Under the pieces are notes generated by a model. The model did not search any database, was not told the origin of the DNA, and was given only the letters and a program-made list of their open reading frames with translations. Shown here piece by piece: positions 3,319 through 12,049 of a DNA stretch of 64,000 bases. Within the stretch, counting starts at the first letter, position 1; each line of letters starts with the position of its first letter. Source of the DNA: Caldilineaceae bacterium (GTDB lineage Bacteria; Chloroflexota; Anaerolineae; Caldilineales; Caldilineaceae). Position numbers and translations under genes: made by a program. The stretch is from positions 1 to 64,000 of the forward strand of contig JADLDO010000028.1 of the NCBI GenBank assembly GCA_020846635.1, in the 5' to 3' direction.

Positions 3319-4185
3319 ATGTCCCAACCCAAAGTCGCGCTAGAATCCACCGTCATTTCTCATGGTCTGCCCTATCCAGCCAATTTAGAATTGGCGCGGC
3401 GCATGGAGGAAACTGTGCGCGCCGCGGGCGCAGCGCCGGCCACGATAGGCATTCTTTCTGGCGAGTTGATCGCGGGGTTGAGTGATGATCAGATTGTCCA
3501 TCTTGCCACAGCGCAAGAGGTACGCAAGGTCAGCCGCCGCGACTTGCCCATTGTCGTGGCGCGCAAGCTCGATGGCGCGACCACGGTTGCCACCACCATG
3601 TGGATCGCGCAGCGCTTTGGCATCGAAGTCTTTGCTACAGGCGGCATTGGCGGCGTCCACCGCGGGGCGGGCTCCAACCCCAGCAGCGACATTAGCGCCG
3701 ACCTGCAAGAGCTCGCACAGACGCCCGTCATCGTCGTCTGTGCTGGAGCGAAGGCGATCCTCGATCTGCCGGCTACGCTGGAGTATTTGGAGACTCACGG
3801 GGTGACCGTAGTGGGCTACCAAACCGATAGTTTCCCCGCCTTTTACAGCCGCAGCAGTCACCTGGCTGTGGACGCACGCTGCGAGAGCGCGGCAGAGGTC
3901 GCGGCGATTTGGCGCGCCAAGCGCGAACTGGGGCTGCCCGGTGGGCTACTCGTCGCCAACCCCATCCCCCTCGCTGATGAAATTCCCGCAGAAGCGATTG
4001 AACCAGCCATCTTGCAGGCTGTCGAAGAAGCCGCGACGAGCGGGCTGCGCTCGGCAGAGGTGACGCCCTTTCTGCTGGCGCGCTTGGCAGAATTGACCGG
4101 CGAGAAGAGCATCCGCGCCAACATCGCGCTCCTGCTCAACAATGCGCGTGTTGCGGGCGAGATTGCGGTGGCGTTGGGGAGTTAG
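3319..4185 (+). CDS. psuG: pseudouridine-5'-phosphate glycosidase
   Basis: PsuG reversibly cleaves pseudouridine 5'-phosphate to uracil and ribose 5-phosphate. The 288-residue length and conserved blocks match the family: ALESTVISHGLPYP (about residues 7-20), the GGIGGVHRGA segment, CAGAKAILDLPATLEYLETH with the Schiff-base lysine expected in the CAGAK motif, and GLLVANPIP. No pseudouridine kinase gene (psuK) is visible nearby, so the phosphorylated substrate must come from a kinase encoded elsewhere. The ribosome site is weak (AAGGA about 15 nt upstream), which fits coupling to the small upstream gene. Confidence 0.92.
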   Translation: MSQPKVALESTVISHGLPYPANLELARRMEETVRAAGAAPATIGILSGELIAGLSDDQIVHLATAQEVRKVSRRDLPIVVARKLDGATTVATTMWIAQRFGIEVFATGGIGGVHRGAGSNPSSDISADLQELAQTPVIVVCAGAKAILDLPATLEYLETHGVTVVGYQTDSFPAFYSRSSHLAVDARCESAAEVAAIWRAKRELGLPGGLLVANPIPLADEIPAEAIEPAILQAVEEAATSGLRSAEVTPFLLARLAELTGEKSIRANIALLLNNARVAGEIAVALGS

Positions 4186-6478: not shown

Positions 6479-7702
6479 TTAGCTCAATTCCTTCAGTTCT
6501 TCGGCAATGCTTGTGCCCACGCGGTGGGTCTCGGTTTGGTGGACAGGTGGCAAGTCAGCCGAATAATGAGGGTCTGGACGCGAAGCCTCGTCGGGCTTAT
6601 CGCTCATGCACAGCAAGAGGCAGCCGCGACCCAGCAACCATTCGGTTACTTCGCAGACCTCATTGGTTAACGTAATCTCACCATTCAATAGTTCCGCAAC
6701 TGGCGTATTATCGGGCATCGTGCCCATGCGCTCGACGGTCGTGATAAACTCCTCACGGCGAAAACGTTTGAAGGGAGTCGGATCGCCGTTCGAAACGCTG
6801 GCGGAGACGGCTTCATGCGCCTGGCGTAGATTCTCGCCGCCCACGCCACCAAACATCATTCGGCTGTTGACCAGACGGAGGAACTGTTCAAAGTTATCCA
6901 CGCTGCCATTCTGAATTTCACGCAAAATCTCCGCATGGTCAAAAAGACCCGCGTTGAGCGCCATACAGATATAGGCCAGGTAATCCTGGTTGTCCTCAGT
7001 CAGAAAGTGATACCGTGAGCGGTTGAGTTCGTTATAGTCGTTCTCAAAGGTGGCGCGGTCAAAATTGTCACCCAATACAGCGTCCATAGTGCGATAGATG
7101 CCTTCGAGGCGCGCTTCGTTAATTACCTGATCATTGCGCCCTTTGGCCCCCAACGCCGTCTTGTCAATGTCCACAATGACAACCGTACGCTGATCAACAT
7201 GCAGCCCTTGTTCCAGAACCCACTTCATCCAATCACTCAGGGCCGCCCAGCGGTTGGCGCTGTAGACATTGCCGTCGCCGATTTCGGCGATGGGCGCATC
7301 ATTGAGTTTTTCACCCCCAATGAAACAGGAGCCTGCCCATTCGCTGACCTCTATCATATTAGCGAACGCATGACCATCGTTATACAAGGTATCCCCAACA
7401 AAGAGGAGTTCATTTAGCTGCGCGTTACTGCGACGCACCTTTTGTGCTGCCTGCTTGGCAATCCAGACCGCAGCCTTCGCATAATCCCGATCCTGTTTGC
7501 GCGGAACCACATCGGCAGGAATTTCCATCTTGTAACTCGCCGCTCGCCGCCCCTGGATGCGTCGATCCAATGGCTCCAAGTTGCGATAAACCACAAGATC
7601 ACCGAAGTAATCCGAAAGTTTGGCTCTCCCAAAGTTCTTGAGCACCGTCTTTGCGCGATCGGCAGATAGCACACCTGTGGTTGACACAGTAGTCACATTC
7701 AC
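6479..7702 (-). CDS. HAD-like protein with permuted motif order
   Basis: I do not recognise this 407-residue family by name. It carries three motifs typical of haloacid-dehalogenase-fold phosphatases, but in the wrong order. First comes a motif III/IV-like stretch (PRKQDRDYAKAAVW at about 67-80, then LLFVGDTLYNDG at 99-110, with the GD....D pattern). The nucleophile motif I follows (VIVDIDKT, 175-182; Asp178 and Asp180). Motif II-like LLLCMSDKP (362-370) is near the C-terminus. A canonical HAD runs I-II-III-IV, so this looks like a circular permutation with a large cap-like insert between I and II. It may start at GTG 7702, or at GTG 7696, which has better spacing from GAGGGG. It is flanked by ftsH and asd but separated from both. 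Confidence 0.6.
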   Translation of the reverse strand: MNVTTVSTTGVLSADRAKTVLKNFGRAKLSDYFGDLVVYRNLEPLDRRIQGRRAASYKMEIPADVVPRKQDRDYAKAAVWIAKQAAQKVRRSNAQLNELLFVGDTLYNDGHAFANMIEVSEWAGSCFIGGEKLNDAPIAEIGDGNVYSANRWAALSDWMKWVLEQGLHVDQRTVVIVDIDKTALGAKGRNDQVINEARLEGIYRTMDAVLGDNFDRATFENDYNELNRSRYHFLTEDNQDYLAYICMALNAGLFDHAEILREIQNGSVDNFEQFLRLVNSRMMFGGVGGENLRQAHEAVSASVSNGDPTPFKRFRREEFITTVERMGTMPDNTPVAELLNGEITLTNEVCEVTEWLLGRGCLLLCMSDKPDEASRPDPHYSADLPPVHQTETHRVGTSIAEELKELS

Positions 7703-7858: not shown

Positions 7859-8962
7859 CTACGCTGCTTGCAGCACGTCGGCCCAGGCTGCGGCTTCCGC
7901 ACCCAAATAGCCCTGCGCCACAATCAATTCAGCGTTGAGCAGACTCCCACCCGCAGCACCGCGGATGGTGTTATGGCCGAGGACCATAAATTTATAATGA
8001 AACAGCGGGTCGGGTCGCAACCGTCCCACTACCGTCGCCATGCCCGGCACGCTGCCCTCCAGCCGATCCAGACGCGGTTGAGGCCGGTCTTGTGCCGGAT
8101 TCACTACAATCGCGGGCTGGGGCGCACTGGGCAGCTTTAACTGCTGGGCCAATGGCTGATACGATTGCCACGCCTGGAGAATCTCCTCCTGGCTAGGCTT
8201 CTGCTTAAATTCTACGCTGACCGCTTCCAAATGTCCATTTCTCACAGGAACCCTATTACAGTGGGCGCTGACAACGAAATCCGCATAGCGCACTTCCTGA
8301 CCGTCAAAAGTACCCAAGAGCTTGTGCGGCTCCTTATGCTCCATCTTCTCCTCTTCGCCGCCAATGTAGGGAACCACATTGTCCAGTATATCCATGCTGC
8401 TGACGCCGGGATAGCCCGCACCGCTGATGGCTTGCATGGTCACGACAAAGACTTTCGAGATGCCAAAGCGTTGGTGCAGCGGGTGCAGCGCGCTGACCAG
8501 ATGGGTTGTGCTGCAGTTGGGGTTGGTGGCGATAAAGCCCTCCCAGCCTCGCTTACGTTTCTGAAGGTCAAGCAGCCCCAAATGTTCGGGGTTCACTTCG
8601 GGAATCAAGAGCGGCACATCGGCATCATAGCGATGGTTGCTCGAATTGCTGCACACGCCATAGCCTGCCTGGGCAAAGGCGACTTCGATCTCACCCGCAT
8701 TGCTCGAAGGCAGCGCGCTAAAGACCAACTGTGCATCAAAACCCGGTTCGCAATCCTGCAAGATGACATCGCGCAGCGCTTCGGGCATTCCCCCGCGCAA
8801 ATTCCAACTGCATGCATCGGCATAGCGTTTGCCCGCGCTCCGCTCTGAAGCGCACAACGCTGTAATCTCAAACCAGGGGTGACCTTGCAATAGCTGCACA
8901 AAGCGTTGGCCCACTGCCCCGGTTGCTCCCAAAATACCCACTTTAATCTTCGCAGGTGACAT
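7859..8962 (-). CDS. asd: aspartate-semialdehyde dehydrogenase
   Basis: Asd reduces aspartyl phosphate to aspartate semialdehyde with NADPH, the second step of the aspartate family pathway. The 367-residue protein has the nucleotide loop GATGAVG (12-18) and the catalytic cysteine in ATNPNCSTTHL (Cys150). Segments such as CSNSSNHRYDADVPLLIPEVN and GYPGVSSMDILDNVVPYI place it in the archaeal/fungal-type branch rather than the common bacterial type. GGGAG lies about nine bases before the ATG. It follows hom on the same strand with a hairpin in the 129-bp gap. Confidence 0.93.
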   Translation of the reverse strand: MSPAKIKVGILGATGAVGQRFVQLLQGHPWFEITALCASERSAGKRYADACSWNLRGGMPEALRDVILQDCEPGFDAQLVFSALPSSNAGEIEVAFAQAGYGVCSNSSNHRYDADVPLLIPEVNPEHLGLLDLQKRKRGWEGFIATNPNCSTTHLVSALHPLHQRFGISKVFVVTMQAISGAGYPGVSSMDILDNVVPYIGGEEEKMEHKEPHKLLGTFDGQEVRYADFVVSAHCNRVPVRNGHLEAVSVEFKQKPSQEEILQAWQSYQPLAQQLKLPSAPQPAIVVNPAQDRPQPRLDRLEGSVPGMATVVGRLRPDPLFHYKFMVLGHNTIRGAAGGSLLNAELIVAQGYLGAEAAAWADVLQAA

Positions 8963-9091: not shown

Positions 9092-10234
9092 TCACGCCGT
9101 ATAAGCCAGTTCGATAATATCACTTAGGACCCCCGCGGCGGTGGCATCTGTGCCTGCGCCGCGCCCCTGGACGACCAGGGGGTTGGGGTTATACCAACGC
9201 GTGGTGAATTCGACCAGGTTGTCAGTGCCGGAGAGCCGCCCCAGAGGGCTTTCCCCATACACGAGCGTCGGCCCCACTCGGCAGACGCCATCCTCCACCT
9301 GGGCCGCAAAGCGCAAGACCTTGCCTGTGCTTGCGGCTTCGGCTACCTGTGCCTGGAAGTGATCATCCAGCCGTGGCAGCGCGTCCATAAATTCAGCCAC
9401 CGTCAACCCGTCCATGTCGGCGGGGTATAGCCCCTGGACCTCCACATTTGCCAGGTCCAGTTGCCAGCCCAGGCCGCGAGCGAGGATCAACGCTTTGCGC
9501 GCCACATCCACACCGCCCAGGTCATCACGGGGATCAGGCTCGGTATAGCCCAACCGGTGCGCCTCACGCACAATGGCGCTGAAAGGCTTGCCCTCCTGCA
9601 ACCCTGTCATCACAAAGCCCAGGGTTCCGCTAAAGGTGCCGGTAATGCGCTTGACCTCATCGCCGCTGCTCACCAGACGGTTGAGCGTCACGATGACAGG
9701 CAAACCGGCCCCCACAGTCGTCTCCCAACGGCTGTGCGACAGTTGGCGCACAGGGGCGAGCCCCTCGCCATTGTCACCCATGCCACTACCATTCGTGACA
9801 CCGGCTGAGGTCAGCCGGTCGTACACCTCCTGGTCAATGGTTAAGGGCTTCTTGTTGGCAAGCACGATCTTATAGTGCTGATCGCGAGCAAAGAGCAGCG
9901 CCGGAACGGTGGCATCGGTGGCGGTGCAATCCACCACGACTGTGCCTGCCCGTCCAGCGATGTCAACAATCCCATAGAGATCATTTTGAACGCCGCCCGC
10001 GGGATGTTGGGCGAGCCGCCGGCCTGCTTCTTTGGCGGCGATGATCTCGTCGATCAACACATCGTCCAGCCCATCGCTGGGCTCGATCACTGCGCCGTCA
10101 CTGTCACAGACTGCCAACAACTCCAGCCTAAGGCCATATTGCAGCGCGTGAAAGCTGCGTTGTTCAACGATCTGGCGCAACAAGGCGCGGCCTACACCCC
10201 CCACACCAAATAAAATAATCGGCAGACTACGCAT
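9092..10234 (-). CDS. hom: homoserine dehydrogenase
   Basis: It reduces aspartate semialdehyde to homoserine, the branch towards threonine and methionine. The 380-residue protein opens with a Rossmann loop (LFGVGGVGRALL), followed by VVVDCTA, the VLANKKPLT substrate segment and the catalytic domain signature GTFSGTLGFVMTGLQEGKPF. It ends after the catalytic domain; I see no C-terminal ACT regulatory domain, so it lacks the usual threonine-feedback module. A terminator-like hairpin separates it from ask upstream. Confidence 0.93.
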   Translation of the reverse strand: MRSLPIILFGVGGVGRALLRQIVEQRSFHALQYGLRLELLAVCDSDGAVIEPSDGLDDVLIDEIIAAKEAGRRLAQHPAGGVQNDLYGIVDIAGRAGTVVVDCTATDATVPALLFARDQHYKIVLANKKPLTIDQEVYDRLTSAGVTNGSGMGDNGEGLAPVRQLSHSRWETTVGAGLPVIVTLNRLVSSGDEVKRITGTFSGTLGFVMTGLQEGKPFSAIVREAHRLGYTEPDPRDDLGGVDVARKALILARGLGWQLDLANVEVQGLYPADMDGLTVAEFMDALPRLDDHFQAQVAEAASTGKVLRFAAQVEDGVCRVGPTLVYGESPLGRLSGTDNLVEFTTRWYNPNPLVVQGRGAGTDATAAGVLSDIIELAYTA

Positions 10235-10438: not shown

Positions 10439-11893
<1,455 letters not shown>

Positions 11894-11944
11894 AGGGTGT
11901 TCCTCCACATCTACAGAAAATGGATGATATATATAATATAGACG

Positions 11945-11971
11945 TACGGACACAATGGATTGTGTCCCCCT
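11945..11971 (-). repeat. short hairpin repeat (CAAT..ATTG family), copy 2
   Basis: Minus strand GGGACACAATCCATTGTGTC followed by CGTACG. GGACACAAT pairs with ATTGTGTCC. It resembles the copy at 6271-6300, including the trailing GTACGT. It lies in the ask mRNA between the leader terminator and the start codon. Confidence 0.5.
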
Positions 11972-11977
11972 TCCGGT

Positions 11978-12021
11978 AAACAAAAACAACCCTCCCATCC
12001 AGACAACAGAATGAGAGGGTT
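11978..12021 (-). terminator. riboswitch expression-platform terminator
   Basis: On the minus strand AACCCTCTCATTC pairs with GATGGGAGGGTT across a 9-10 nt loop, followed by GTTTTTGTTT. Its 5' arm contains CTCTCATT, which can instead pair with GATGAGAG, the 3' strand of riboswitch helix P1. These are the mutually exclusive pairings expected of a SAM-OFF attenuator. Confidence 0.9.
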
Positions 12022-12049
12022 GAGCAGGAACGCGGCTGCGTACAGTCAT

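Follow-up and report, generated by a model that had tools for sequence, protein, structure and literature searches.

An open reading frame among aspartate-family genes

The window analyzed here, a stretch of 64,000 nucleotides from a Caldilineaceae genome, carries on one strand the genes lysC, hom, asd, and ftsH in this order, and between the last two an open reading frame that had been annotated, from its letters alone, as a HAD-like protein with circularly permuted catalytic motifs. We refer to its product as cpHAD (Table 1). The boundaries assigned to this frame hold, and its full-length conservation across many genomes identifies it as a real gene, whose start codon may be the GTG at 7702 or a second GTG two codons further on. 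A single copy was found in the window's own genome (6.8 Mb in 79 contigs). For the neighboring lysC, the match to TIGR00657 begins only at residue 53-54, so that the true start probably lies downstream of the listed one; the listed frame is about 50 residues longer at its 5' side than the kinase domain, and an internal ATG (MLVMKFGG) is the probable start. Downstream of ftsH, on the opposite strand, positions 3319-4185 encode an indigoidine synthase A-like protein (PF04227, pseudouridine-5'-phosphate glycosidase family), a gene that is likewise found near cpHAD in regions of two relatives.

Table 1. Genes around cpHAD and sequence features within it (positions in the window)
Feature	Position	Strand	Basis and remarks
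cpHAD, permuted HAD-like protein (name coined here)	6479..7702	-	407 aa; open reading frame, translation, homologues
Motif II, S367-D-K-P-x-E372	6587..6604	-	185-sequence alignment
Cap insert between motifs I and II	6683..7156	-	predicted all-helical
Cap signature T309-P-F...F314-R315..E318	6749..6778	-	185-sequence alignment
Cap signature T235-x-D-N-Q-D240	6983..7000	-	185-sequence alignment
Motif I, D178-I-D180-K-T182 (putative nucleophile and general acid/base)	7157..7171	-	alignment and motif profile on canonical HADs
Motif IV, G103-D104-T105...D109 (predicted end of strand S4)	7376..7396	-	alignment and motif profile on canonical HADs
Proposed motif III lysine, R68-K69	7496..7501	-	K69 in 184/185, one gap
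asd, aspartate-semialdehyde dehydrogenase	7859..8962	-	TIGR00978 above cut-off; directly upstream of cpHAD
hom, homoserine dehydrogenase	9092..10234	-	PF00742, E=3e-48
lysC, aspartate kinase	10439..12049	-	TIGR00657 above cut-off

A homologue search returned 184 further distinct full-length sequences, with identities between about 30% and about 71%; together with the window protein these make up an alignment of 185 sequences built from genome DNA. Homologues occur in all 46 sampled genomes of the window's order, in 94 of 249 genomes of its class by single-sequence search (142 of 396 by profile), and in 44 of 158 genomes of a second Chloroflexota class, the names Anaerolineae and Chloroflexia for the two classes being deduced from named relatives and the phylum. 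Two relatives in the genome collection have names, Litorilinea aerophila and an Anaerolineae bacterium; both are metagenome bins from the Chloroflexota, with 51% identity each, and no relatives were found in plasmid and viral collections. cpHAD is a previously unnamed, conserved, and unusual protein family of the Chloroflexota. Two genomes, G087 and G052, hold a second, more divergent copy (L214/L215 and L224/L225) that is 31-34% identical to the window protein; these are the only clear paralogues seen.

The position next to asd recurs throughout the family. The 175 testable loci are those of distinct homologues for which 1 kb or more of upstream sequence was available; in 150 of them, from both classes, asd precedes cpHAD on the same strand. 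The median gap of 41 bases between the projected asd stop and the conserved cpHAD start suggests that the two genes are co-transcribed. Within 17 kb of cpHAD, lysC and hom are frequent; thrC, encoding threonine synthase (TIGR00260, above cut-off), clusters with asd and cpHAD at two loci (L127 and L128), and metX, metW, and metY (O-acetylhomoserine sulfhydrylase) lie nearby at others. These neighbors (asd, lysC, hom, thrC, and the met genes) converge on homoserine, and we consider it likely that cpHAD acts in the pathway of aspartate-derived amino acids. A canonical HAD conserved beside asd in non-carriers, which could have represented the ancestor of cpHAD, was not found. Four Anaerolineae regions (L120, L121, L123, and L125) show a DUF1015 protein clustered with asd and cpHAD (PF06245, E=1e-80, in L123), with a serine hydroxymethyltransferase gene adjoining it in L120 and L123; this protein, which comes after cpHAD in some Anaerolineae, might be part of the same pathway or tied to a phosphoryl donor of the kind considered below, which we note only as a lead.

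Motif order and relationship to HAD proteins

The initial annotation had read VGDTLYND (residues 102-109), VDIDKT (177-182), and MSDKP (366-370) as motifs III/IV, I, and II, whereas the HAD superfamily (PF00702 and relatives) has the order I-II-III-IV. All three motifs stand at these positions in the translation, and a permuted pattern with limits on spacing matches 184 of the 185 family members, the full order being III (K69), IV (GDT..ND, 103-109), I (DIDKT, 178-182), cap, and II (SDKP, 367-370). The lysine suspected between residues 69 and 83 is K69, in the sequence PRK. Both aspartates of motif I and, nearly without exception, the GD....D pattern proved intact across the family: D178, D180, D109, and G103, as well as K181, are found in all 185 sequences, and D104 in 183, the other two having asparagine. 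Position 367 is serine in 183 sequences and threonine in two, the same variation as in HADs; D368, P370, and E372 are each invariant (185/185), and H388 is kept in 184. The cap also has the extent of roughly 180 residues first attributed to it, D180 and S367 being separated by 184 residues in the median (5-95%: 168-187), and it carries two signatures that matched no family in the present comparison. These are TxDNQD, in which T235, D237, N238, and D240 are invariant and Q239 is present in 181 members, and TPFxxFRxxE (309-318), in which T309, F314, and R315 are invariant and P310, F311, and E318 are each present in 183. Median spacings elsewhere are 33 residues from K69 to D104, 73 from D104 to D178, and 35 from S367 to the C terminus. 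Given this conservation, the near-constant spacing, and the permuted pattern in 184 of 185 members, we set aside a chance arrangement or a degenerate copy. A second GD/DD...D motif C-terminal to motif II was found in none of the 185 sequences, and, as none of them contains a second set of motifs, we do not favor a fusion of two incomplete HAD domains.

What cpHAD has in common with the HAD superfamily are the elements themselves: DxD at motif I, serine or threonine at motif II, lysine at motif III, GD...D at motif IV, a cap insert after motif I, and a predicted alternation of strands and helices. Sequence similarity, in contrast, falls below routine detection. The initial annotation had named no family with this order, and the window protein has no significant match in Pfam, NCBIfam (including the GHMP kinase profile TIGR00191), PHROGs, or PDB sequences. 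PF00702 is matched by 2 of 26 native family members (best E=8e-4), the window protein not being one of them, and in a Pfam scan re-permuted sequences gained nothing over native ones. An hmmsearch with the two halves of the family against the HADs of the genome likewise gave no significant match. When 11 canonical HADs of the window genome, picked with PF00702, were compared with 70 decoy proteins, a cap-less family profile scored the HADs higher than the decoys (p=8e-5), as did the N-terminal part of the profile alone (p=4e-4), a similarity that is weak and driven by the motifs. Separate profiles of motifs I, II, and III/IV often fell on the corresponding motif of canonical HADs from the same genome (e.g., NRRLVVFDMDSTLIQ, AELRRQGKRTLFVTNKPVDSR, and VNPQRVLAIGDSDNDIPML), and motif I was placed before III/IV in 17 of 20 of these, several placements being non-specific. 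Against PDB entry 2hcf, a solved HAD, the re-permuted profile aligned weakly, in three pieces and in canonical order (E=0.17). Since re-permuting the profile raised local scores no more for HADs than for decoys, the case for HAD membership rests on motifs, spacing, and conservation. On these grounds cpHAD is very probably a permuted HAD, and the sequence data support the interpretation first given to it; because its motifs do not follow the order I-II-III-IV, we place it in no canonical HAD family. A full-text literature search, whose coverage leaves out most subscription journals, found no described permuted HAD.

AlphaFold models built from three input sequences were of low confidence, with a mean pLDDT of 47 for the full-length protein and 52 for a fragment covering residues ~24-200, and their predicted secondary structure fits a permuted HAD. 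The predicted N-terminal elements are a helix after PRK, a strand (98-103) running into GDT, a helix, a strand (125-129), and a helix; later elements are a strand (173-178) running into DxD, an all-helical cap (pLDDT of 60-85 across most of 200-310), a helix (347-358), and a strand (362-366) running into SDKP, behind which the serine or threonine of motif II sits. Foldseek with the full model gave no meaningful match, and the fragment model weakly matched generic alpha/beta folds, with no HAD among the matches listed. A mean-field analysis of couplings (129 effective sequences at 80% weighting) yielded strongly coupled pairs within the halves (177-353, 101-129, and 179-365) and, among ten strand pairs, the highest best-register mean for S1-S2; the inter-half pairings S4-S1 and S2-S3 gave no resolved signal in this noisy analysis. 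If cpHAD is permuted as we propose, the permutation point would lie between strands S2 and S3. Residues ~25-135 would then correspond to the usual C-terminal half (S3, the motif III lysine, S4 with motif IV, and S5), a linker (~135-165) would join the halves, and the remainder up to the chain end would be the usual N-terminal half, with motif I on S1, the cap, and motif II on S2.

The same features could be read differently. The active site of CheY-like receivers resembles that of HADs, and cpHAD might be a Rossmann-like enzyme outside the superfamily whose acidic and lysine motifs arose by convergence; the failure of the window protein to match a HAD in Pfam, NCBIfam, or PDB sequences and the generic alpha/beta folds found with the fragment model would agree with this. 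We nevertheless regard such an origin as improbable, because four motifs occur with the residues, spacing, and preceding hydrophobic strand of HAD half-domains, serine and threonine exchange at motif II, and HAD profile scores, though weak, exceed those of decoys. Equally small is the probability we give to a domain-swapped dimer, in which the halves would be exchanged and the active site built between two chains. Sequence data are blind to intra- versus interchain pairing, and a linker of about 30-40 residues would suit a swap, but one full motif set per chain, at near-constant spacing in 184 of 185 members, makes it unneeded.

ThrB distribution and the missing homoserine kinase

Threonine synthase uses O-phosphohomoserine as its substrate. 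The homoserine kinase ThrB (TIGR00191) scored above cut-off in none of 18 cpHAD carriers, whose GHMP-like matches were all partial and did not exceed 39.5 bits, compared with 9 of 20 non-carrier Chloroflexota (Fisher p=0.0013, shared ancestry ignored). Among Anaerolineae with an Asd of the window type, ThrB was found in none of 13 carriers and in all 8 non-carriers, these being raw counts that ignore ancestry and take the Asd status of carriers from neighborhood counts and not from a genome-wide search of each genome. Most Anaerolineae non-carriers without ThrB were also without window-type Asd. Two carriers, G615 and G249, belong to families in which there are also non-carriers with ThrB. In Chloroflexia, however, ThrB was absent from non-carriers (0/7) as well as from carriers (0/5), which means that cpHAD does not replace ThrB one-to-one across the phylum and implies that a further homoserine kinase, or a loss of the pathway, must exist within it. 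Six Chloroflexia genomes (G377, G412, G602, G608, G654, and G667) have Asd and lack both ThrB and cpHAD, suggesting either a further homoserine kinase of another kind or threonine auxotrophy. The PGM-like homoserine kinase (TIGR02535) was never above cut-off; absence of homoserine kinase here refers to the families of TIGR00191 and TIGR02535.

According to Price et al. (2018), there are novel homoserine kinases still to be discovered, and they name Dehalococcoides, another member of the Chloroflexota, in this context (PMC5764234). With its gene adjoining amino acid genes, cpHAD is a candidate for the enzyme that is missing at the homoserine-phosphorylating step of threonine synthesis, an assignment that we make tentatively.

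A possible reaction of cpHAD

A precedent is offered by ThrH, which, unlike cpHAD, is a HAD of canonical order. In Pseudomonas, ThrH phosphorylates homoserine with the phosphate of phosphoserine (reviewed in PMC1079889), so that a HAD can fill the homoserine-phosphorylation step. By analogy with this phosphoserine:homoserine phosphotransferase of Pseudomonas aeruginosa, cpHAD may use HAD-type chemistry and may stand in for homoserine kinase by forming O-phosphohomoserine without ATP-dependent kinase chemistry. With ThrB, a GHMP homoserine kinase, it would share the product and the position in the pathway, whereas the proteins are unrelated and their distribution is complementary in Anaerolineae. 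Taken as a whole, the proposal that cpHAD is a permuted HAD and replaces ThrB, making O-phosphohomoserine through an aspartyl-phosphate transfer of the ThrH kind, is to our minds quite possible while falling short of probable.

Roles for individual residues can be modeled on established HAD chemistry. Asp178 would attack the phosphoryl group of the donor and become the phosphoryl carrier, and Asp180 would serve as acid/base, protonating the leaving group and then activating the homoserine hydroxyl (or water). Ser367 and Lys69 would grip the phosphate, Asp104 and Asp109 would complete the Mg2+ site, and substrate selection would fall to the helical cap, with R68, R40, K369, and residues of the cap probably binding the substrate. 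The phosphoryl group would thereby pass from a donor, phosphoserine in the case of ThrH, to homoserine, yielding O-phosphohomoserine for threonine synthase. HAD proteins are seldom net phosphorylating enzymes, which counts against this reaction.

Alternatively, cpHAD may be a permuted HAD that works as a plain Mg2+-dependent phosphatase of a serine or aspartate-family metabolite, for instance phosphoserine, phosphohomoserine (as a clean-up activity), or some other phosphate ester, and carriers would then lack ThrB by an accident of lineage. Most HAD enzymes are phosphatases, there are Chloroflexia with neither ThrB nor cpHAD, and SerB (TIGR00338) scores above cut-off in just 2 of the 18 carriers, all of which makes this a real possibility, though one that we would not call probable. 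On the other side, the genes that recur beside cpHAD are asd, hom, lysC, and thrC, and both the window genome and G038 hold SerB and cpHAD together, so that cpHAD is not simply a replacement for SerB.

Should the proposal of a homoserine-phosphorylating HAD be correct in full, cpHAD would be the first natural circularly permuted HAD and, at the same time, the enzyme by which much of the Chloroflexota phosphorylates homoserine, through aspartyl-phosphate transfer and without an ATP kinase, a combination that we hold to be possible, though less likely than not. The HAD superfamily is among the largest groups of enzymes, and a natural permutation, if true, would mean that its core withstands being cut between motifs II and III. 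Given that known profiles miss the cpHAD family almost completely, other permuted HADs could have been overlooked. For the Chloroflexota, cpHAD provides a concrete candidate for a recognized gap, the missing homoserine kinase.
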